Positions 45,987-62,760 of a stretch of DNA of 64,000 nucleotides are shown here, one piece after another. The translations under genes and the position numbers were made by a program. The first letter of the stretch is position 1; each line of letters begins with the position of its first letter. The notes beneath the pieces are model-generated. The model searched no databases, was not told the origin of the DNA, and saw only the letters and a program-made list of their open reading frames with translations. The DNA comes from a virus: IMG/VR virus record IMGVR_UViG_3300047560_001714, positions 1 through 64,000 of that record. One strand, given 5' to 3'.

Positions 45987-46069
45987 AATGATAAATAAAA
46001 TTAGTAAACGCCGATTGGGTTTACAAAACTGGCATAGTGCCAAACAACTCGCTTAATAGGAGAATTACA

Positions 46070-47980
46070 ATGAGTAAAATTATAGGTATTGACTTAGGTA
46101 CAACAAATTCGTGTGTTGCCATTTTAGAAAATGGTGTTTCAAAAGTTATTGAAAATTCTGAAGGCACGAGAACAACCCCCTCAATCATTGCATATACTGA
46201 CAATGAAATCTTAGTTGGTGCTGCGGCGAAACGCCAAGCAGTTACTAACCCAAAAAATACAATTTATGCTGCAAAACGCTTAATTGGACGTAAGTTCGAA
46301 GAAGATGCAGTTCAAAAAGACATCTCACTTATGCCATATGCAATCGTCAAAGCCGACAACGGTGACGCTTGGATTGAAGCAAATGGTGAAAAACTTGCAC
46401 CCCCACAAATTTCCGCTGAAGTACTTCGTAAAATGAAAAAAACCGCTGAGGATTATCTTGGCACCGAGGTCACTCAAGCTGTTATTACTGTTCCTGCTTA
46501 CTTTAACGATTCACAACGCCAAGCAACAAAAGATGCTGGTCGTATCGCTGGATTAGAAGTATTACGTATTATCAATGAACCAACTGCGGCGGCATTGGCC
46601 TATGGTGTTGACAAAACTGATAATAAAGATCGTAAGATTGCGGTTTACGATTTGGGTGGTGGTACATTTGACATCTCAATCATTGAAATCGCTAACATCG
46701 ATGGTGAAAAACAAATCGAGGTATTATCAACAAACGGTGATACTTTCTTAGGTGGTGAGGATTTTGATCAAAGACTAATGGATTATTTGGTCGATGAATT
46801 CAAAAAAGACACCGCTGTCGATTTAAAAAATGATACGATGGCATTGCAACGATTAAAAGAGGCTGCTGAAAAAGCAAAAATCGAATTATCGTCATCAGAA
46901 CAAACTGATGTAAATTTACCATACATCACAGCAGATGCATCTGGTCCAAAACATCTAAACGTCAAAATCACTCGTGCTAAATTCGAAGCACTGGTTGAAG
47001 ATTTGATCGAACGTAGTATTACACCATGTAAAATCGCTATCAAAGATGCTAAAGTTAGTTTAAGTGATATCGATGAAGTTATTTTAGTCGGTGGTCAAAC
47101 TCGTATGCCAAAAGTACAAGCGGCGGTTGAAGCGTTGTTTGGAAAATCCCCACGTAAAGATGTTAATCCAGATGAAGCTGTCGCGGCTGGTGCAGCTGTA
47201 CAAGGTGCGGTATTAGCTGGCGATAAAACAGACGTGTTATTGTTAGACGTAACACCATTAAGTTTGGGTATTGAAACAATGGGCGGTGTATTCACCAAAT
47301 TGATTCAAAAAAATACCACTATCCCAACTAAAGCAAGTCAAACCTTCTCGACAGCCGATGATAATCAACCAGCGGTAACTATCAAAGTTGCGCAAGGTGA
47401 ACGTGAGTTATATCAATATAACAAACAGCTCGGTGAATTCAACCTTGACGGTATCAACCCAGCACCCCGTGGTGTACCACAAATTGAGGTAACGTTCGAT
47501 ATCGATGCAAATGGTATTATGCACATTTCAGCATCCGATAAAGCAACTGGAAAGAAAAACCATATTACTATTAAATCAGATTCTGGCTTATCAGAGGACG
47601 AAATTACACGTATGGTTAGAGATGCTGAGGAAAACGCGGAGGCTGATAAAAAAGCTAAAGAATTGATTGAAGCTCGCAACCAAACAGAAGCACAACTTCA
47701 TAGTATTCAAAAAGATTACAATGAAGTTAAAGATGAACTATCTGATGATGAAAAAGCGGCGATTGATGAAGCTATCACCAACGTGAATACTGCGGTAACT
47801 AGCGATGATATTGAGAAAATGAAAGAGTCAACATCAAAGCTAATGGAATCAGCAACCCCAGTTTTTGCTAAAAAGCAAGAAAAAGCCTCAGCACAAGAGC
47901 CAACATCATCCGATGAGGTTCCTATCCAAGCTGAGTTTACTGAGGTTGAAACCCCAAATTCTACTGAAGATAAAAAATAA
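46070..47980 (+). CDS. dnaK: Hsp70 chaperone DnaK, full length
   Basis: A 636-residue DnaK, the same length as the bacterial protein (E. coli 638). Start 46070 has AGGAGA 7 nt upstream. ATPase domain: [79 protein letters not shown]. Linker: [19 protein letters not shown]. The substrate-binding domain and helical lid follow, with a short acidic tail ending in EDKK. All nucleotide-binding residues I can check are kept, so it should be active with host DnaJ/GrpE, neither of which is in this window. Full-length DnaK is rare in phages. It likely helps folding of the very large virion proteins. Confidence 0.97.
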
Positions 47981-48828: not shown

Positions 48829-49362
48829 ATGAGTTTAAAAGAAATCACAAAAGAATTGCACACAGAAGCCGAGAAATCGGCTTTTGCTAAACTATTGTTA
48901 AGTGGTAATATTACCAAAGAAAAGTATGTGCAATACTTAACAGAAATGCAACCAATTTATCAGTTGATTGAAAAACACGCATCCGCACAAGGGATATTAG
49001 ACACCTTGCCTGGTATTAAACGTGCTAATGCTATTTTAGAAGATATCAGAGAGCTGTCAGATGTTGTACCATCCTCTGTGTTAAAACCAACCGTTGATTA
49101 TCTTATATACTTAGATAAATTATGTGAGGACGTGGCGACTAAACACCTAATTAAAGCTCATCTATATGTCAGACATATGGGCGACTTATTTGGTGGTCAA
49201 TTCATTGCAAAAAAAGTTCCGGGTTCTGGTAAGTTTTACCAATTTGATAACCCAGATGAACTGAAAGTTGCCATTAGAGAGTTGCTCACAGATGATCTAG
49301 GGGATGAAGCGAAAGTTGCATTCCAATGGGCAATAAAAATTATGGATGCGCTCGGTGAGTAA
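48829..49362 (+). CDS. Heme oxygenase
   Basis: A 177-residue heme oxygenase. His11 in TKELHTEAEKSAF is the proximal heme ligand, and YVRHMGDLFGGQFIAKK (~112-128) is the distal helix with the flexible Gly residues and Asp119, as in bacterial enzymes. It opens heme to biliverdin, CO and iron using reduced ferredoxin or a similar donor. It is somewhat shorter than typical bacterial forms (~200). It starts right after the clpS stop with a GAGGG ribosome site, and its end overlaps the bilin reductase gene by 17 nt, so the two are co-expressed as a pathway. Confidence 0.92.
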   Translation: MSLKEITKELHTEAEKSAFAKLLLSGNITKEKYVQYLTEMQPIYQLIEKHASAQGILDTLPGIKRANAILEDIRELSDVVPSSVLKPTVDYLIYLDKLCEDVATKHLIKAHLYVRHMGDLFGGQFIAKKVPGSGKFYQFDNPDELKVAIRELLTDDLGDEAKVAFQWAIKIMDALGE

Positions 49363-50032
49363 CGTTTGGGATACCTTAGTATCAATTCAAATACATTTTG
49401 AAAAAATGATTGGTACTAACGGTATAGAAATCAACGAAAAAGGCATGGATAGATTCAACCAACCTGGTTGGATTAACCGTGTCTGGACCAGTGAAGCATT
49501 TCGTAGAGCGCACATTGATGTTGTGGATGCTAGAGAGAGTAAAGGGTTGTGGATGATGCATTGTTGTATTTTTCCACACACTCATAATGCGGCACCAATA
49601 TTTGGGTTTGACGTTGTTGCAGGTCGAAATAAAATCACTGGCTGTTTTTATGATTTTAGCCCATCTGGTTCATCAAATCACGAAATGGCGGAATGGTTTG
49701 ATGAAAGTGTTAAAGATCTTGAGTGGAAAAAGACACGCGAATTACCACCTTGGGCTGAACGTATTTTTAGTCATAATATGATTGCGGCAAGTAATGTTCA
49801 ATCAGATGATGAATTAAAACAGATCCACGAAATGGCAACATCTGGTATTGATTTCTATCTACAACAAGTTGGTACGTATAACAATACCACAAAAGATGTT
49901 ACCGCGTTGCATAACTTTTATGCACAGAACCAAAAACAAAATCCACATACCCCAAAAGTTATGGCAGCACTTGGGTTAGATGAGGATGATGTTAAGGTGT
50001 TCATCAATGACTGTCTGTTCCCAGAACTCTAA
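49346..50032 (+). CDS. Ferredoxin-dependent bilin reductase (PcyA/PcyX-like)
   Basis: A 228-residue protein. FRRAHIDVVDARESKGLWMM, HCCIFPHTHNAAPIFGFDVV (Asp89 in the position of the catalytic Asp) and AGRNKITGCFYDFSPSG align with PcyA-type enzymes (LQILHMVLFP, PIFGCDLVGGRGQISAA). LPPWAERIFS matches PEWGDIFS. PcyA reduces biliverdin to phycocyanobilin. The phage variant PcyX, described from metagenomic phages thought to infect alphaproteobacteria, makes phycoerythrobilin, and context makes PcyX likely here. Which bilin is made cannot be read from sequence. The start could be GTG 49355. It ends at a terminator. Confidence 0.88.
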   Translation: MRSVSNVWDTLVSIQIHFEKMIGTNGIEINEKGMDRFNQPGWINRVWTSEAFRRAHIDVVDARESKGLWMMHCCIFPHTHNAAPIFGFDVVAGRNKITGCFYDFSPSGSSNHEMAEWFDESVKDLEWKKTRELPPWAERIFSHNMIAASNVQSDDELKQIHEMATSGIDFYLQQVGTYNNTTKDVTALHNFYAQNQKQNPHTPKVMAALGLDEDDVKVFINDCLFPEL

Positions 50033-50092: not shown

Positions 50093-50572
50093 ATGACTAA
50101 AATTATAGGTTTATTACTTATACTTGTTTGTTCGCAAGCACTATCCGCCGAATTGGTACATCAATTTAATAGTCCATCATTTAGTGGTATTGGTTACAGT
50201 GCGCACGTACTTACTATAAACCAATTAGAAAATCAAGCGGCAGATAAAAATAAAGCATTAGCTGATTCTATAAAAGCAAAGGCGGAGGCGGCAGCATTGA
50301 ATACCCCCGAAGCTAAATTCTTGGCTAACTTAGAATCTAGAATATACTCACAACTCGCAAAACAATTAACTGATACTATGTTTAGCGAGGGAAATACTTG
50401 TAATATCCCAGGAACAGTTTGTGGCTCAATACCAGATTTGGGCGGAAACCATGTTACATGGAGTTTGGGCGCAGGGACTGATCAAGGAATGATAATCATT
50501 GATATTGTCAATAACTCTAACCCAGCGCAAACAACGTCGATGAAGGTACCATCCGGTTCATTTTACTTTTAA
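50093..50572 (+). CDS. csgF: Curli assembly protein CsgF-like
   Basis: A 159-residue protein with a signal peptide (MTKIIGLLLILVCSQALSAE). The mature N-terminus ELVHQFNSPSFSGIGYSAHV follows the CsgF pattern ELVY.P.NPSFGG; CsgF inserts this segment into the CsgG pore. A helical middle (NKALADSIKAKAEAAALN) and a beta C-terminus follow. It sits immediately before csgG (2 nt gap). In bacteria CsgF couples curlin secretion to surface nucleation. Expression probably starts from a late promoter inside the upstream hairpin. Confidence 0.85.
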   Translation: MTKIIGLLLILVCSQALSAELVHQFNSPSFSGIGYSAHVLTINQLENQAADKNKALADSIKAKAEAAALNTPEAKFLANLESRIYSQLAKQLTDTMFSEGNTCNIPGTVCGSIPDLGGNHVTWSLGAGTDQGMIIIDIVNNSNPAQTTSMKVPSGSFYF

Positions 50573-50574
50573 CT

Positions 50575-51405
50575 ATGAAAAAAATTATACTATTATTCGT
50601 TATATTAATATTACAAGGGTGTGCAACAACAAGTGAATTGCATAAATTAATTACTGGCGATCAATTCGATGATCCAGTGATTGAAAAGCAATCTTATCTT
50701 ATCAAAGACGAAAGTTGGATTGCACCACCAACAAATGGGGCAATTCCAATTGCAGTGTATGGGTTTGTGGATAAAACTGGGCAACGTAAAGCTGTCCCTA
50801 ATATCGCATCCTTAAGTTCGGCTGTTACACAAGGTGCAGAAAGTTATTTGATTAAGTCGTTACAAGACGTGGGTGAATCAAAATGGTTCACTGTGGTTGA
50901 ACGAGTTGGTCTGGATAATTTAATTAAAGAACGACAAATGATTCGTCAGACTAGAGAACAATTCCAAGGCCGTGATGCACAACAATTACCAGCAATGACA
51001 TTTGCGGGAATAATTGCCGAAGGTGCTATCGTCGGTTATGATTCTAACACAACCACTGGTGGTGCTGGCGTCAGATTATTTGGAATCGGTGGTGAAACTC
51101 AGTATCAAAGCGACACAGTCACTGTTAGTTTAAGAACAGTATCAGTTACGTCTGGTGAAATATTAACATCAGTGTTAGTAACAAAAACAGTATTGAGTTA
51201 CGTGGATAAAGCTGGTGTATTAAAATTTGCTGCATCAGGTACATCAGCAATAGAGGCCGAGGTCGGTGGAAGTATAAATGAAAGTATAAACAGAGCAACC
51301 AATAAAGCGATCCAAGCTGCAGTACTCGATACAATTAAAGAAGGGGCGCGTAAAGGTCACTGGGCAATTCAATCTGTTCCAAATCCTTACGTATTAAACC
51401 ATTAA
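50575..51405 (+). CDS. csgG: Curli secretion pore lipoprotein CsgG
   Basis: A 276-residue protein with a lipoprotein signal and lipobox LQGC at residues ~13-16 (ILILQGCATTSEL), so it is anchored in the outer membrane after acylation. CsgG motifs: IPIAVYGFVDKTGQRK, VVERVGLDNLIKERQMIRQT, FAGIIAEGAIVGYDSNTTTG, VTVSLRTVSVTSGEIL. CsgG forms a nine-fold channel for curlin secretion. Length matches the bacterial protein (277). In a phage it could serve surface-fibre export or make the outer membrane leaky. Confidence 0.92.
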   Translation: MKKIILLFVILILQGCATTSELHKLITGDQFDDPVIEKQSYLIKDESWIAPPTNGAIPIAVYGFVDKTGQRKAVPNIASLSSAVTQGAESYLIKSLQDVGESKWFTVVERVGLDNLIKERQMIRQTREQFQGRDAQQLPAMTFAGIIAEGAIVGYDSNTTTGGAGVRLFGIGGETQYQSDTVTVSLRTVSVTSGEILTSVLVTKTVLSYVDKAGVLKFAASGTSAIEAEVGGSINESINRATNKAIQAAVLDTIKEGARKGHWAIQSVPNPYVLNH

Positions 51406-51441: not shown

Positions 51442-52221
51442 ATGAAAACATTAACATTATTTCTACTTTCGATTTTATTTTTTTCTAACGCGTATGGCGC
51501 GGCAGCTGGTGAAAATAAAGTATATATAGAGCAAGCTGGTAACACCAATACCATTACAATAGACCAAATAGGTGGTGGTAATATGGTCGGAGGTACAACC
51601 TCAACAACAATAGCCGTGAATGGCGCAGGGGTGACAACTATCACACCTGCTAGTCCTAGTTCATCTAACTACGCGTTGATAACTGGGAATACAAATAGTT
51701 TAACATTAAACCACTTAGGTGATACTAACTGGGCTCAATATGTCATTACTGGGAGTAATAATATCTACTCTAATAAAATTACTGGGAATAGTAATATATC
51801 AATTCTAACAATCGGAAAAGTATTACCAACTCCTATGGCAAATCTTAGAAATAATATAAATGAAGAAATAATTGGTAATACTAATTATACAATCCAATCT
51901 ATTTCCAATGATGATATTATTAGTAACTTAAAAATAACCGGCGATCAAAACCAAGTTACCACAGACTTAGGTTCTAGTTTTGGAAAAGTAAATACAGTTA
52001 TCACAGGCGGAAATAATATTCTATTCAATACTCAAGCTGGTGTTGCTACTGGTCATGATCTTACTCAAGATATTCTAGGCAGTTTTAACTCAATATCAAC
52101 TCAACAGTTGGGTGTAAATGATTCCATAATAGATATTAAAGTTAATGGCGATCATAATACGATTACAGTTCATTCAAGTGATAGCACTATTGCGTCACCA
52201 TTAATTGCAACACCACGATAA
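51442..52221 (+). CDS. Secreted curlin-repeat-like protein 1
   Basis: A 259-residue protein with a signal peptide (MKTLTLFLLSILFFSNAYGA). The mature part holds degenerate curlin-like strands: VYIEQAGNTNTITIDQIGGG, then units of the form GNTN/GSNN/GDQN about every 20-25 residues. This is the Q-x-G-x-x-N ladder of CsgA/CsgB in a looser form. It probably forms a beta-solenoid exported by CsgG. No Shine-Dalgarno is close to the ATG. Its stop overlaps the FecR-domain gene start by one base. Confidence 0.7.
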   Translation: MKTLTLFLLSILFFSNAYGAAAGENKVYIEQAGNTNTITIDQIGGGNMVGGTTSTTIAVNGAGVTTITPASPSSSNYALITGNTNSLTLNHLGDTNWAQYVITGSNNIYSNKITGNSNISILTIGKVLPTPMANLRNNINEEIIGNTNYTIQSISNDDIISNLKITGDQNQVTTDLGSSFGKVNTVITGGNNILFNTQAGVATGHDLTQDILGSFNSISTQQLGVNDSIIDIKVNGDHNTITVHSSDSTIASPLIATPR

Positions 52222-53306
52222 TGTACATTATAGCCTTATTATTTTTGTTTATTTCTAATTCATACGCTGGTATTGGTACCGTTGTTGATGCAACTGGTAC
52301 CAATTGCACAATAGAGCGTAGTTCTAAAAAAATCTCTGGTGAAAAAGGGGCGATAGTTGAAAGTATGGATACCTATATTACTGGTAGTTGTGTAAGTAAT
52401 ATAACTTTTGACGATGGTACCAAAGTTAAAGTAAACGAAAATAGTAAGCTATTCATAGATGAATTTGTTTACGATCCAAAACAATCAGATGCAGGTAAAC
52501 TAGCTATCAAAGTCGGAATGGGTACTGTTCGTTATGCATCTGGTCAAATAGCTAAAAACAATCCACAAAAAGTTGATATAAAAACACCGACGGCAGCAGT
52601 TGCAGTGCGTGGTACTGACTTTACTATGACTGTCGATGAGATTGGTCAAAGCTTAGTGGTACTTGTTCCAAGTTGTAAAGATGAAAAAGATGTAAAAAAG
52701 TATGAACTACAAGAAAACACTTGCCAAGTTGGTAGAATAATAGTTTCAAATGGTATGGGTTCTGTTGAACTATCCGAGGCATACCAAGCTACTTTTGTTA
52801 ACAGCAATGTGGTGCAACCAACACCACCAGTTGTAATCAATATGACTGAGGGGCAAATTGGGAATAATCTTATCATATTGAAACCAGCGGAAATTCAAAA
52901 AGCGGTTAAAGAAAATACCAGAACCCAAAAAGACTCCGAGAATGATGCAGCTGAGGATGAAACCGCCAGACGCTCAACTAGTATGGCACTGAAATCCGCC
53001 GAACTAAATGATGCAAAAATATCCTCATCTAAAAAACTACAAATTGATAAATCTTGTAACCCATCCTCATCAGTATGTGTGGCTTGGGAAAATAAAGATG
53101 CCGAGGGGCAAGCAAAAGGAATTGGGGTAGCGTATAGATTCCAACCGGATGAACATTATACTGAAATAAAGACACAAGGTTATACCTCTAATACCTCAAT
53201 ATCAATAACACAAAACGATGAATTCGCATCGACCGTCATAGGGGATGGTGCCGCCGGTGGAAACATCATTACTATCAAACAACAAAATGGAGTGTTAAAT
53301 AAATGA
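52221..53306 (+). CDS. Secreted FecR-domain protein
   Basis: A 361-residue protein with a signal peptide (MYIIALLFLFISNSYAG). Residues ~20-150 form a FecR-like beta domain (GEKGAIVESMDTYITG, FDDGTKVKVNENSKLFIDEF, KVGMGTVRYASGQ, KTPTAAVAVRGTDF). The region around 270-361 contains an acidic/charged segment and ends NDEFASTVIGDGAAGGNI, again curlin-like in composition. FecR domains in exported proteins often accompany adhesins. Its place between two curlin-like genes, with one- and four-base overlaps, suggests it belongs to the fibre system, perhaps as an anchor or nucleator. Confidence 0.75.
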   Translation: MYIIALLFLFISNSYAGIGTVVDATGTNCTIERSSKKISGEKGAIVESMDTYITGSCVSNITFDDGTKVKVNENSKLFIDEFVYDPKQSDAGKLAIKVGMGTVRYASGQIAKNNPQKVDIKTPTAAVAVRGTDFTMTVDEIGQSLVVLVPSCKDEKDVKKYELQENTCQVGRIIVSNGMGSVELSEAYQATFVNSNVVQPTPPVVINMTEGQIGNNLIILKPAEIQKAVKENTRTQKDSENDAAEDETARRSTSMALKSAELNDAKISSSKKLQIDKSCNPSSSVCVAWENKDAEGQAKGIGVAYRFQPDEHYTEIKTQGYTSNTSISITQNDEFASTVIGDGAAGGNIITIKQQNGVLNK

Positions 53307-53764
53307 GACATTTGTTACTTTTTCTTTTATGCTCTATATGTTACGCTGATAATTTAACATCAGTTAACCAAATTGGTAATAGCAACGATATTGAAATTAA
53401 CCAAATAGGTGATGTAAATAATATATCGTATTCTGGTAATGGTTCCTTTAATACCGTCAATGTTGAACAAATCGGTAATCAAAAAACTGCAAACTTAACT
53501 GTTATTAATAATAACAATATCATAGACGTATCACAAAGTGGTACTGGGATTGATTCGGCAACAATAGCGGTTAGTGGTGGACTTAAAAATATATCAGTAA
53601 CACAAGAAGGTTCCGGGTCACATTCAGCAACCATAAACTTATCTGGAACACCTATTACATTTGATCTAACTCAATCTGGAGTTAATAATCAAACATTTTC
53701 AATCACGGCAAATTGTGCCCTAGTGGGCGGTTGCGCCGCAGTTCAAGTCATTCAAAATCAATAA
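53303..53764 (+). CDS. Secreted curlin-repeat protein 2 (CsgA/CsgB-like)
   Basis: A 153-residue protein with a short signal peptide (MRHLLLFLLCSICYAD). It has clear curlin repeats: VNQIGNSNDIEINQIGDVNN, VNVEQIGNQ, IDVSQSGTGIDSATIAV, ISVTQEGSGSHSATINL, FDLTQSGVNNQTF. Each has the S/V-x-Q-x-G-x-x-N pattern of amyloid-forming CsgA/CsgB units. Two Cys lie near the end (ANCALVGGCAA). It is the best candidate for the amyloid subunit of the cluster. It overlaps the FecR-domain gene by ATGA and ends near a late promoter. Confidence 0.82.
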   Translation: MRHLLLFLLCSICYADNLTSVNQIGNSNDIEINQIGDVNNISYSGNGSFNTVNVEQIGNQKTANLTVINNNNIIDVSQSGTGIDSATIAVSGGLKNISVTQEGSGSHSATINLSGTPITFDLTQSGVNNQTFSITANCALVGGCAAVQVIQNQ

Positions 53765-56317: not shown

Positions 56318-57319
56318 ATGATTAAGAAAATACTACTCAGCCATTGGACAGCACTAATAACACTAACCTTAGTTGTGCTAGTTCGCGTAATAGATCCATC
56401 ATTTGTTGAAAGTATCCGTTTAAGATACTTCGATACATTGATAACAGCTAAAGCACCCACAGAAAACAATATTATTTCTGTTAATATAGACGAGGATGCT
56501 CTTGATAAGTATGGCCAATGGCCATTTAGTCGAGATATATACGGTTCTATAATCGAGGATTTATACCAGCGAAATGCTGGGTTAGTGGTATTCAATGTCT
56601 TAATGCCAGAAAAGGATAGACTAGGTGGTGATGCGGCATTGGCAAAAACAATCGCTAATAATCCCGTTATCATTCCAAGCGTTGCATCTATAAAATCAAA
56701 AAATACACCAAAAAACCCAGGGGCATCTGTCATTGGTGCGGATTATGCTGATATGATAGTCCAGTTTCCAGGTATAATTTCATCGATTGATATTATCAGT
56801 GAACATGCGGCTGGTGTTGGTATCATCAATACATTACCGGAAATAGATGGCGTCAATAGACGTTTACCTATGTTAGTAACCGCCAAACATACGTTGTATC
56901 CATCACTAAGTATGGAGGTTCTTCGTGTGGTGGCCGGTGATCCATCGTTTCAAGTCAAACTGAATAACTTTGGTGTTGAAAAAATGCGTATACCAGCGTT
57001 TGGTGTAATATCAACCGATTCGTTAAGTCGTGTGTGGATTGATTGGAGTCAACATAATCAAAGTATTAGTTTATCACAGCTACCAAATGATTTTGGTGGT
57101 GCGATAGTAATAGTCGGACCAACCGCCGCTGGTATTAGTAACCCAATCTCTACTCCAAAAGGTCCAATCTTCCCAAATGATATTCAAGCGGCGATGATTG
57201 GTACTATGATGAATAAAGTAACCATCAACAGACCGGACTATTCGGACGGTGCTGAAATTTTAGTTGGTGCCGTTTGTGGTATCTTGTTAATTATAGGTTC
57301 GTTATGGCGGAAGAGATAG
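56318..57319 (+). CDS. CHASE2 sensor half of a split adenylate cyclase
   Basis: A 333-residue protein. An N-terminal membrane helix (~8-26) is followed by an extracytoplasmic CHASE2 domain (NIISVNIDEDALDKYGQWPF, SRDIYGSIIEDLYQRNAGLV, GDAALAKTIANN, GVGIINTLPEIDGVNRRLPM). One C-terminal membrane helix (EILVGAVCGILLIIGSLW) and WRKR-stop follow. In bacteria CHASE2 is normally followed in the same protein by three membrane helices and a cyclase or kinase. Here the protein ends after the first helix, and the remaining helices plus cyclase are encoded after a homing endonuclease gene. It is likely to pair with that protein. Confidence 0.82.
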   Translation: MIKKILLSHWTALITLTLVVLVRVIDPSFVESIRLRYFDTLITAKAPTENNIISVNIDEDALDKYGQWPFSRDIYGSIIEDLYQRNAGLVVFNVLMPEKDRLGGDAALAKTIANNPVIIPSVASIKSKNTPKNPGASVIGADYADMIVQFPGIISSIDIISEHAAGVGIINTLPEIDGVNRRLPMLVTAKHTLYPSLSMEVLRVVAGDPSFQVKLNNFGVEKMRIPAFGVISTDSLSRVWIDWSQHNQSISLSQLPNDFGGAIVIVGPTAAGISNPISTPKGPIFPNDIQAAMIGTMMNKVTINRPDYSDGAEILVGAVCGILLIIGSLWRKR

Positions 57320-57336
57320 TAAATCCACTAACATTT

Positions 57337-57345
57337 GATAAATAA
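57337..57345 (+). promoter_or_regulatory. Late promoter core giving a leaderless start
   Basis: GATAAATAA; TAAATA ends 5 nt before the ATG at 57350 (spacer ATATT). No ribosome site for the homing endonuclease is seen. Confidence 0.55.
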
Positions 57346-57349
57346 TATT

Positions 57350-57922
57350 ATGAGAATATATATTATTACAAATTTATCAAACAATCATCGATATGTCGGA
57401 ATGACTACTAAAACATTAGCAGAACGGTGGGCGCAACATAAAGCGGATGCTAAGAGAAATAAACCTTGGATTTTACATAAAGCATTGCGAAAATATGGGT
57501 ATGAGAATTTCAAAATAGAATTATTAGAGGAATGTAATGCTAATTCACTGACAGAATTAGGACTTATTGAAACTAATTACATAACAACACTAAAACCAGA
57601 ATATAATATGACATCTGGTGGTGAAGGGCATAGTGGTATTTCAGCAAAAGGTGAAAAGAACGGGATGTTTAATAAAAAGCACAGTGAAGAAACAAAAGAA
57701 AAAATAAGTATCAACCGAAAAGGAAAAGGAGGACAAGTTGGGGAATTAAATCCTCGATATGGTAAACCTGGTACATTTCTCGGATGTCAGCATTCCGATG
57801 AAACTAAATCAAAAATGCGAAAACCTAAATCAATACCTAGACAACGTGTTTCTTGTGAATTCTGTGGTAGAGAAATAGCCATAAATGCAATCGGGCAGCA
57901 TAAGAGAGCACACCATGAATAA
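57350..57922 (+). CDS. GIY-YIG homing endonuclease
   Basis: A 190-residue protein. GIY-YIG domain: IYIITNLSNNHRYVGMTTKT, the catalytic Arg in LAERWAQHK, and Glu in LIETNYITTLKPEYN. Two NUMOD3 DNA-binding motifs follow (GMFNKKHSEETKEKISINRK and RYGKPGTFLGCQHSDETKSK), then a C2H2-like finger (CEFCGREIAINAIGQHKRAH). It is a free-standing mobile endonuclease like T4 Seg/Mob proteins. It sits exactly between the two halves of a CHASE2-cyclase gene and overlaps the cyclase start by 8 nt. The start at 57350 is leaderless after a late-promoter core. Confidence 0.9.
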   Translation: MRIYIITNLSNNHRYVGMTTKTLAERWAQHKADAKRNKPWILHKALRKYGYENFKIELLEECNANSLTELGLIETNYITTLKPEYNMTSGGEGHSGISAKGEKNGMFNKKHSEETKEKISINRKGKGGQVGELNPRYGKPGTFLGCQHSDETKSKMRKPKSIPRQRVSCEFCGREIAINAIGQHKRAHHE

Positions 57923-58982
57923 ACATCTAAGTTATATATTACCACTATTTTTTATTATTATAATATCATTTTTCAGTTTTCATGAATACCAAAATGAACA
58001 CATTCTGTTCGATGTAACATTTCCAGTTATAACAATTGTTCTAGTTACACTACATATTAACACTGTTCGATTTATTACAGAATTAACCCTTAAATTACAA
58101 ATAAAAAAACAATTTGGCACATACCTAAGTGCAGCATTAGTTGAAAAATTGCAGAAAAACCCAGATTTACTCCATTTAGGGGGCGACAGTAGAGAATTAT
58201 CCATTCTCTTTTCCGACGTAAGAGGATTCACATCTATCTCTGAACACTATGGCGAAGATGTCCAAGGGCTTACAAAGATTATGAATAGATATATGACAGC
58301 AATGACAGCAGAAATATTAACAAATGATGGCACACTTGACAAATATATTGGTGATGCTAAAATGGCTTTCTGGAATGCTCCACTTGATGATCCACATCAT
58401 GCAAAAAATGCTGTAAAAACCGCATTACAAATGTTAAAGAACTTGGAGAAGTTTAATAATGAAATCGAAAAAGAAGGAGTTCCAGCTTTCGGGATGGGCC
58501 TTGGTGTTAACACTGCCACTGTGGTTGTTGGCAATATGGGTAGTGATCAGCGTTTCGATTATACCTGCCTTGGTGATGGGGTTAACCTCGCGTCACGGCT
58601 TGAAGGACAATCAAAATCGTATGGGGTTAAAATCGTTCTGGGTCCGAAAACAGCCGACTATGTCAAAGACGAATACTTAGTTCTTGAACTAGACCTACTT
58701 GCAGTTAAAGGTAAAAAACAAGGTGTCACAATCTTTACGGTCTTAGGTGAGAATGATCCCAAATATACAACGCATGATATAAAAATGCATAATAGAATGC
58801 TTGAGTTATATCGCAAACAACGTTGGGATGAAGTTATTCATGCTTGCAATCCATTAAAAAAAGCTTTCAGTGGCGAAATGAAAAAGTATTATGAAATGAT
58901 GCAAGAACGTGCTACTGAATATAGCCAAACTAATAAATTTATTGAAAACTGGGATGGCGTGTACGTTGCCACAAGCAAATAG
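57915..58982 (+). CDS. Class III adenylate cyclase half (two membrane helices plus cyclase)
   Basis: A 355-residue protein that starts at 57915 inside the end of the endonuclease gene. Residues ~5-22 and ~34-50 are membrane helices, followed by a linker (LQIKKQFGTYLSAALVEKLQ, as in CHASE2 cyclases). The cyclase domain runs ~90-275: Asp101 (ILFSDVRGFTSIS) and Asp147 (LDKYIGDAKMAFWNAP) bind the metals, Lys143 and Asp215 (FDYTCLGDG) select adenine, and Asn224 and Arg228 (VNLASRLEG) stabilise the transition state. All are present, so it should make cAMP. A ~75-residue helical tail follows. Confidence 0.88.
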   Translation: MNKHLSYILPLFFIIIISFFSFHEYQNEHILFDVTFPVITIVLVTLHINTVRFITELTLKLQIKKQFGTYLSAALVEKLQKNPDLLHLGGDSRELSILFSDVRGFTSISEHYGEDVQGLTKIMNRYMTAMTAEILTNDGTLDKYIGDAKMAFWNAPLDDPHHAKNAVKTALQMLKNLEKFNNEIEKEGVPAFGMGLGVNTATVVVGNMGSDQRFDYTCLGDGVNLASRLEGQSKSYGVKIVLGPKTADYVKDEYLVLELDLLAVKGKKQGVTIFTVLGENDPKYTTHDIKMHNRMLELYRKQRWDEVIHACNPLKKAFSGEMKKYYEMMQERATEYSQTNKFIENWDGVYVATSK

Positions 58983-62305: not shown

Positions 62306-62311
62306 ATACTC

Positions 62312-62707
62312 AACTTAGCAACAATAAGCATATTAGATTTATTAGTGTGCTTATTATTGTTGTAATTCCTTCAAAGTGAAGGCATTCAAGACGGGGGTTC
62401 GACTCCCCCCAGTTCCACCATAAAACACATTAGAGGTATCAGAGTGGGGCCATAGCCATAAACTTCCTGCCCCCCCCTAAAAGGGAAGTGCTAGTGTGTT
62501 TTATAATGGGGCTGTCATGGTTTCGATTGGGTGAGATAATGGAGACGGCAACAGGTGAGGTGACTGTCCTAAACAGCGCAAAACAAGTAATCGCAAACGA
62601 TTCAAATTTCGAATTCTATACATTAGATAACATCGATTTAGATGTTATGGCTGCTTAATAACCAGCCGATTCCGGGGCATGTATGCCCTGTTACCTAAAA
62701 TACAACT
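62312..62707 (+). ncRNA. ssrA: Circularly permuted (two-piece) tmRNA
   Basis: Acceptor piece first: a T-arm with stem GGGGG/CCCCC and loop TTCGACT (62393-62409), then CAGTTCC, discriminator A and CCA (62410-62420). After an ~87-nt linker comes the coding piece, which begins GGGGCTG (62508-62514), then TCATGGTTTCGATTGGG, the tmRNA D-region signature. GGGGCTG pairs with CAGTTCC as a 7-bp acceptor stem. The tag frame begins GCA at 62593 (AND, then SNFEFYTLDN, IDLDVMAA) and ends in TAATAA at 62656-62661. Linker ends can pair (TAAAACACATTAG with CTAGTGTGTTTTA), as in permuted precursors. Piece boundaries before 62368 and after 62690 are estimated. It rescues stalled ribosomes and tags the protein for proteolysis. 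Confidence 0.9.
62421..62507 (+). other. Intervening segment of the tmRNA precursor
   Basis: About 87 nt between CCA of the acceptor piece and GGGG of the coding piece, presumably cut out. Its ends pair over ~13 bp (62421-62433 with 62492-62505), bringing the acceptor-stem halves together. It contains a C8 run and an AACTTCC/GGAAGT pair. Confidence 0.6.
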
Positions 62708-62733
62708 AAGCTGCCTTCGGGCAGCTTTTTTTA
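62708..62733 (+). terminator. Rho-independent terminator of the tmRNA
   Basis: AAGCTGCC and GGCAGCTT form a stem with a TTCG tetraloop, followed by T residues. Confidence 0.9.
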
Positions 62734-62760
62734 CATCAAATATCATAGGTGTCAGACAAT

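Follow-up and report, generated by a model that had tools for sequence, protein, structure and literature searches.

The window, the whole stretch of 64,000 nucleotides analysed here, comes from a 187,935-bp phage (IMG/VR record IMGVR_UViG_3300047560_001714) and contains a CHASE2-adenylate cyclase locus whose parts follow one another along the DNA in the order CHASE2 half, GIY-YIG/NUMOD3 endonuclease, and class III cyclase half. The reading frames and coordinates of these three genes are as given in an initial annotation. Pfam recognises CHASE2 over residues 16-321 of the product of 56318-57319 (E = 2.4e-39), both GIY-YIG (1.6e-9) and NUMOD3 (3.4e-9) in 57350-57922, and Guanylate_cyc in 57915-58982 (E = 1.7e-19). 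The features of the locus are as follows:

56318..57319, plus strand: N-terminal half of the cyclase, with an N-terminal membrane helix, the extracytoplasmic CHASE2 sensor, and the first helix after CHASE2
57308..57920, plus strand: inserted element of ~613 bp, delimited by comparison with intact relatives at the protein and DNA levels, its boundaries good to a few bases
57319..57349, plus strand: leader of the mobile element, GTAAATCC..TTTGATAAATA
57350..57922, plus strand: GIY-YIG homing endonuclease with a NUMOD3 motif, by Pfam
57915..58982, plus strand: C-terminal half of the cyclase, with two membrane helices, a signalling helix, the class III cyclase domain, and a C-terminal tail

The initial annotation had placed the sensor and first helix in one gene, helices 2-3 and the cyclase in another, and the endonuclease exactly between the two. 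Hydropathy, which gives two membrane helices per half, bears out the first part of this description, while the Pfam matches to GIY-YIG and NUMOD3 and the alignment at the break bear out the second. Sensor and catalytic domain do not share one chain here, the split falling at 57308-57920; when both halves are taken together, the CHASE2 sensor lies between the N-terminal helix and a set of three helices. The inserted element contributes stop codons, the leader, the endonuclease, and a start codon for the C-terminal half. The N-terminal half ends in GSLW followed by RKR, and its TAG stop comes from the insert. The endonuclease likelier starts at ATG 57350 than at TTG 57335 of the mechanically called reading frame, and for the cyclase half the most probable start is ATG 57915, which overlaps the endonuclease stop (ATGAATAA), rather than ATG 57885; the ribosome-binding site preceding ATG 57915 is weak (AGAGAG).

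Comparison with relatives confirms that the split is real and derived, and that the ancestral gene was continuous. Each half, used as a query against viral contigs, matched at least 80 loci, and among the matches listed all relatives that span the junction (146 of 146) read through it in one frame. One intact cyclase gene is also present in each of the annotated phages HTVC008M and Melnitz, so the uninterrupted homologues that the initial annotation had proposed to look for do exist. The last conserved codon before the insert is TGG at 57305-57307 and the first one resumed is AAA at 57921-57923; where relatives have AGG TGG followed directly by AAA TAT, this phage has TTA TGG, 613 inserted bases, and AAA CAT. 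Aligned with intact relatives, the N-terminal half stops at the conserved W of a loop that reads RW-TY or RW-KY (the hyphen marks the break) and adds RKR only, while the C-terminal half, read from ATG 57915, adds MN and then resumes with KHLSY. No residue is lost at the junction, and the claim of a gene divided in two thus survived a comparison in which residues essential to it could have proved missing. According to hydropathy and AlphaFold2, the chain is interrupted in the short loop that joins the first two helices following CHASE2, so that every structural element stays whole. The topology that CHASE2 proteins usually have would put this loop on the cytoplasmic side of the membrane.

Both halves look well preserved, about as well as the intact relatives. 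At positions conserved in at least 95% of 126 clusters of relatives, the N-terminal half keeps 36 of 38 residues and the C-terminal half 61 of 62, compared with an average of 0.98 in intact relatives; by our own reading, the two misses in the N-terminal half are the appended RKR tail, pushed by the aligner into a later column. Neither half contains a stop or a frameshift. Residues D101, K143, D147, and R228 of the C-terminal half fall in columns invariant across 32 relatives, and T217 and N224 are present as well. We take D101 and D147 to be the metal-binding aspartates, assigning metal-binding, purine-binding, and transition-state roles from what is known of class III cyclases, and K143 together with T217 makes up the Lys/Thr pair that characterises class IIIb enzymes, CyaC among them. 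AlphaFold2 models both halves with confidence as separate chains: the N-terminal half reaches a pLDDT of 88, with its last helix at 309-332, and the C-terminal half a pLDDT of 86. The nearest solved structures to the C-terminal half are CyaB, CyaC, and Cya2 (33-35% identity); Foldseek returned no solved structural relative of the CHASE2 half.

Class III cyclases dimerise through their catalytic domain. The C-terminal half contains this domain entire and is slightly better conserved than the N-terminal half, which would suit a catalytic half that works alone with its own two helices, unregulated, beside a sensor half that is a doomed remnant. We regard this as unlikely, though not strongly so, because the N-terminal half runs without interruption over 333 codons and has kept almost every near-invariant position of CHASE2. 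Among intact relatives, those closest across both halves reach only ~62-65% identity in protein sequence, and a recent loss of function here could therefore be missed. The identities of the N- and C-terminal halves to relatives are negatively correlated (Spearman -0.38). Different parents for the two halves were considered as the cause and rejected, since four relatives (L013, L027, L072, and L025) are close to this cyclase in both halves; we take the trend to reflect query sampling together with shuffling of halves in this cyclase family.

The endonuclease has relatives at 69-72% identity in five contigs (L165-L169), directly behind a CHASE2-cyclase in 5 of 5. These represent two independent lineages, because a single phage, found in four samples, accounts for L165-L168. 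The element is homologous to L165 and L169 from 57319 to about 57904. The leader GTAAATCC...TTGATAAATA before the start codon is common to L169, and its last part to L165, which implies that the mobile unit begins near 57319. Against its L165 orthologue, the endonuclease has a dN/dS of ~0.14, with synonymous sites near saturation in pairwise tests, suggesting that the endonuclease itself is maintained. It is the one GIY-YIG gene found in the 187,935-bp record, and contigs of bacterial genomes yielded weak relatives only.

Judged from its sequence, the insert is a free-standing mobile gene, housed neither in an intron nor in an intein. Endonuclease-interrupted phage genes often contain introns (PMC10448857), and the flanking coding sequence is preserved here, as it would be if a group I or II intron carried the endonuclease and RNA splicing restored a continuous cyclase. 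We give this very little probability: Rfam has no match at E ≤ 5 across this junction, and in L045, L211, and L169 it finds no intron family, only chance-level matches to unrelated families. Outside the endonuclease frame, the 613 bp leave ~42 bp before the ATG and none after the stop, too little for an intron core, and in L165 and L169 the element with the shared leader follows a finished cyclase gene, where there is nothing to splice. A fractured gene whose halves are joined by a split intein through protein trans-splicing has practically no chance of applying; rejoining of endonuclease-fractured phage genes by split inteins is described in work cited in PMC10448857, but here the extra residues number 3 on the N-terminal half and at most ~12 on the C-terminal half, leaving no room for intein halves.

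Several relatives carry marks of homing at the same gene. L165, with the endonuclease, and L221, without it, belong to phages that are otherwise almost the same, with an identity of 0.91-1.00 over the CHASE2 half and mostly of 0.8-1.0 farther downstream; identity drops to 0.57-0.74 in the catalytic half, which the endonuclease directly follows, and recovers behind the endonuclease. This is the pattern of a catalytic half and endonuclease swapped as one co-converted tract, as would be expected of homing. In L223 and L224, ~0.8 identical elsewhere, identity reaches 0.96-1.00 in the 5' part of another endonuclease and in the cyclase 3' end next to it, and members of the cluster L220-L223/L240 differ in the presence of this type of endonuclease. 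Presence or absence and co-conversion are thus seen for the relatives' element or for others at the same gene, not for this insertion itself. In the 123 cluster representatives retrieved by cyclase queries, there are 4 nuclease-like ORFs in the 36 kb within 150 bp of the cyclase and 7 in the 970 kb farther out, a ~15-fold higher density that is indicative only because the profile was partly seeded with such neighbours.

Other arrangements accompany the gene in further contigs. L169 has, at 23-2238, a cyclase with a complete C-terminus, the endonuclease, and a displaced remnant of another cyclase C-terminus, 68 codons long. Endonuclease-like ORFs end at the cyclase start or a few bases before it in L034 (986-1774), L038, L319, and L325 (231-1136), indicating that the 5' side is occupied too. 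Extra cyclase fragments lie ~4 kb upstream of an intact cyclase in L227 (553-921), L265 (553-912), and L056 (2034-2333), and are possibly leftovers of earlier replacements.

The gene is split elsewhere as well, in two further phage lineages of a subtype for which an uninterrupted allele is available:

L045, 6001-8897: split gene (same contig as L202 and L277)
L211, 4179-7173: split gene (with L212, L275, and L276)
L278, 3747-5816: uninterrupted allele of the L045/L211 subtype

In L045 and L211, the break falls inside the cyclase domain, after LILSENxxNRLKxEN, and is caused by GIY-YIG-like ORFs other than that of the present phage. Their inserts open with TATAAATA, which also gives the stop codon of the first piece, and the ATG from which the C-terminal piece resumes corresponds to an internal Met in L278. 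The ORF in L045 has no Pfam match, and its GIY-YIG nature follows from similarity to other ORFs of the set that were partly used to build the profile, making it a weaker case than L211. Comparison of the two with each other indicates that the pieces are constrained: the cyclase domain has a pN of 0.09 and a pS of 0.70, and the separated tail has a pN/pS of 0.29 over 88 codons. Site and leader suggest that the two contigs share their split by descent; if so, the latter ratio reflects selection on an already separated piece, although part of the divergence could be older than the split. The attribution of the present split to its endonuclease, made in the initial annotation, is supported both by these further splits and by the free-standing relatives that adjoin the same gene.

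A search of viral contigs for the junction pattern returned no second copy of the exact junction, and the present split is found in one contig only. An assembly chimera would account for a single contig, but it is hardly credible given the clean boundaries at a protein loop, the independent homologues that the element has beside this gene in other samples (L165-L169), and the independent splits of that gene. A single occurrence would also suit an insertion that inactivated the cyclase and left both pieces drifting, and a phage may tolerate losing an accessory gene. We find a dead gene distinctly improbable, since stops and frameshifts are absent, the catalytic residues and other conserved sites are kept, and the separated tail in the parallel L045/L211 splits has the low pN/pS given above.

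We propose that the locus encodes a receptor cyclase in pieces, created by a free-standing GIY-YIG homing endonuclease, with both halves probably made and assembling as two chains; we put the probability of this reading at roughly three in four. The endonuclease, whose known relatives sit directly behind the CHASE2-cyclase of curli-carrying phages, would have left that position and entered the cyclase gene itself at a loop that tolerates insertion. With the ~613-bp insert would have come a promoter-like leader, stop codons that end the first half, and a start codon for the second, turning one gene into two with the endonuclease between them. The basic tail of the N-terminal half (WRKR) and the basic start of the C-terminal half (MNK) should hold the new ends in the cytoplasm. 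The second half could be made by translational coupling at ATGAATAA, and both halves are probably still made and would pack together in the membrane, giving a receptor cyclase of two chains. Function is likely kept through this helix-packing assembly. The main alternative to assembly is an uncoupled cyclase free of its sensor, in which the catalytic half, self-dimerising in this enzyme class, would work by itself. We infer the cutting site, as well as the expression, assembly, and cyclase activity of the halves.

A wider reading is that the CHASE2-cyclase of the phage curli module is a standing homing target of several endonuclease lineages, its catalytic half reshuffled between phages and the gene at least twice made into a working multi-chain enzyme, once, in the present phage, by separating sensor from catalytic chain at the membrane loop. 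We advance this tentatively, at somewhat less than even odds. If it holds, sensing would now depend on non-covalent packing of helices. A membrane sensor divided between sensing and catalysis would be a natural split receptor, one that tests transmembrane signalling across a broken chain. With three split lineages, more endonuclease types adjoining, and transfer tracts, the gene is a good place to watch endonucleases reshape a gene in wild phages.

The initial annotation's comparison with nrdA of phage Aeh1 and with gene 39/60 of T4 fits the literature (PMC2988022). In Aeh1, nrdA-a, mobE, and nrdA-b constitute a ribonucleotide reductase gene in pieces whose activity is demonstrated, as reported in PMC2988022, citing Friedrich et al. 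2007. As in the present phage, a free-standing homing endonuclease lies between two chains of one phage gene, at an insertion site that differs from the usual place of the element beside its target. MobE, however, is an HNH enzyme rather than GIY-YIG, and the Aeh1 target is a soluble nucleotide enzyme of demonstrated activity, whereas here it is a membrane sensor cyclase known from sequence. Split genes with free-standing endonucleases also occur as 43A, seg43, and 43B in Aeromonas phage 25 and as 39/60 with mobA in T4, and the Seg enzymes are GIY-YIG proteins like the endonuclease here (PMC2988022). The function of split 43A/43B is kept by assembly, and the split in phage 25 may be older than the endonuclease (PMC2988022). 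Both of these cases concern replication proteins, unlike the cyclase. Endonuclease-split phage genes are therefore known; those we found described are soluble replication or nucleotide enzymes, and a split membrane sensor is absent among them. A search of open-licence papers for CHASE2, adenylate cyclase, and phage together returned nothing on point, which is weak evidence.

The anatomy of L169 matches that of fungal mitochondrial mobile ORFs, which replace the C-terminus of atp6, atp9, cox2, and nad3 in Allomyces and Glomus (PMC3630166): a complete C-terminus, an endonuclease, and a displaced C-terminal piece. The fungal elements are mitochondrial and mostly LAGLIDADG (GIY-YIG in atp9), whereas this phage has a plain split with no duplicated tail. 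CyaB of P. aeruginosa (3r5g), CyaC of S. platensis (1wc0-1wc6), and Cya2 (2w01) share the catalytic fold and sequence of the C-terminal half but are single chains with other sensor domains.

The leader contains GATAAATA at 57337-57344. This motif occurs 11 times in the window, where 6.0 +/- 2.6 would be expected, in most cases a short way before a gene, and its sites include 26934, 29060, 45915, 53767, and 57337. We suggest that it may be a phage promoter, possibly a late box. It is a likelier candidate than the T4-type late promoter TATAAATA, which was set aside because it is not enriched but rarer than chance (3 in the window, 11.7 expected).

Upstream of the cyclase lies a curli module:

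50093-50572, plus strand: csgF (Pfam CsgF, 6e-9)
50575-51405, plus strand: csgG (Pfam CsgG, 2.2e-48)
51442..53764, plus strand: a curlin-repeat protein, a FecR-domain protein, and a second curlin-repeat protein (Pfam Curlin_rpt and FecR)

The order csgF-csgG-curlin-FecR-curlin is the same in Pelagibacter phage HTVC008M and Methylophilales phage Melnitz, and pelagiphages of the HTVC023P type likewise combine it with a CHASE2-cyclase nearby. In HTVC008M and Melnitz the cyclase is uninterrupted and directly behind the curlin gene, whereas here it is split and a RimK-like and a gp88-like gene intervene. Earlier work describes such a curli module in phages, FecR and adenylate cyclase included (PMC9599517, PMC9004378), and the cyclase is a member of this known module rather than a bacterial gene, which corrects the context in which the initial annotation had set it.

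Three further observations concern the surrounding window. A permuted tmRNA gene of betaproteobacterial type, with the tag ANDSNFEFYTLDNIDLDVMAA, lies at 62306-62749 on the plus strand (Rfam RF04321, RF01850); Melnitz is already known to have a phage tmRNA in two pieces (PMC9004378). At 48829-50032 on the plus strand, immediately before the curli genes, a heme oxygenase gene is followed by one for a ferredoxin-dependent bilin reductase, a pair that sits here in a phage whose annotated relatives at the curli module infect heterotrophs. At 46037-47980, also on the plus strand, a full-length Hsp70/DnaK-like protein is encoded (Pfam HSP70, E = 8e-262).
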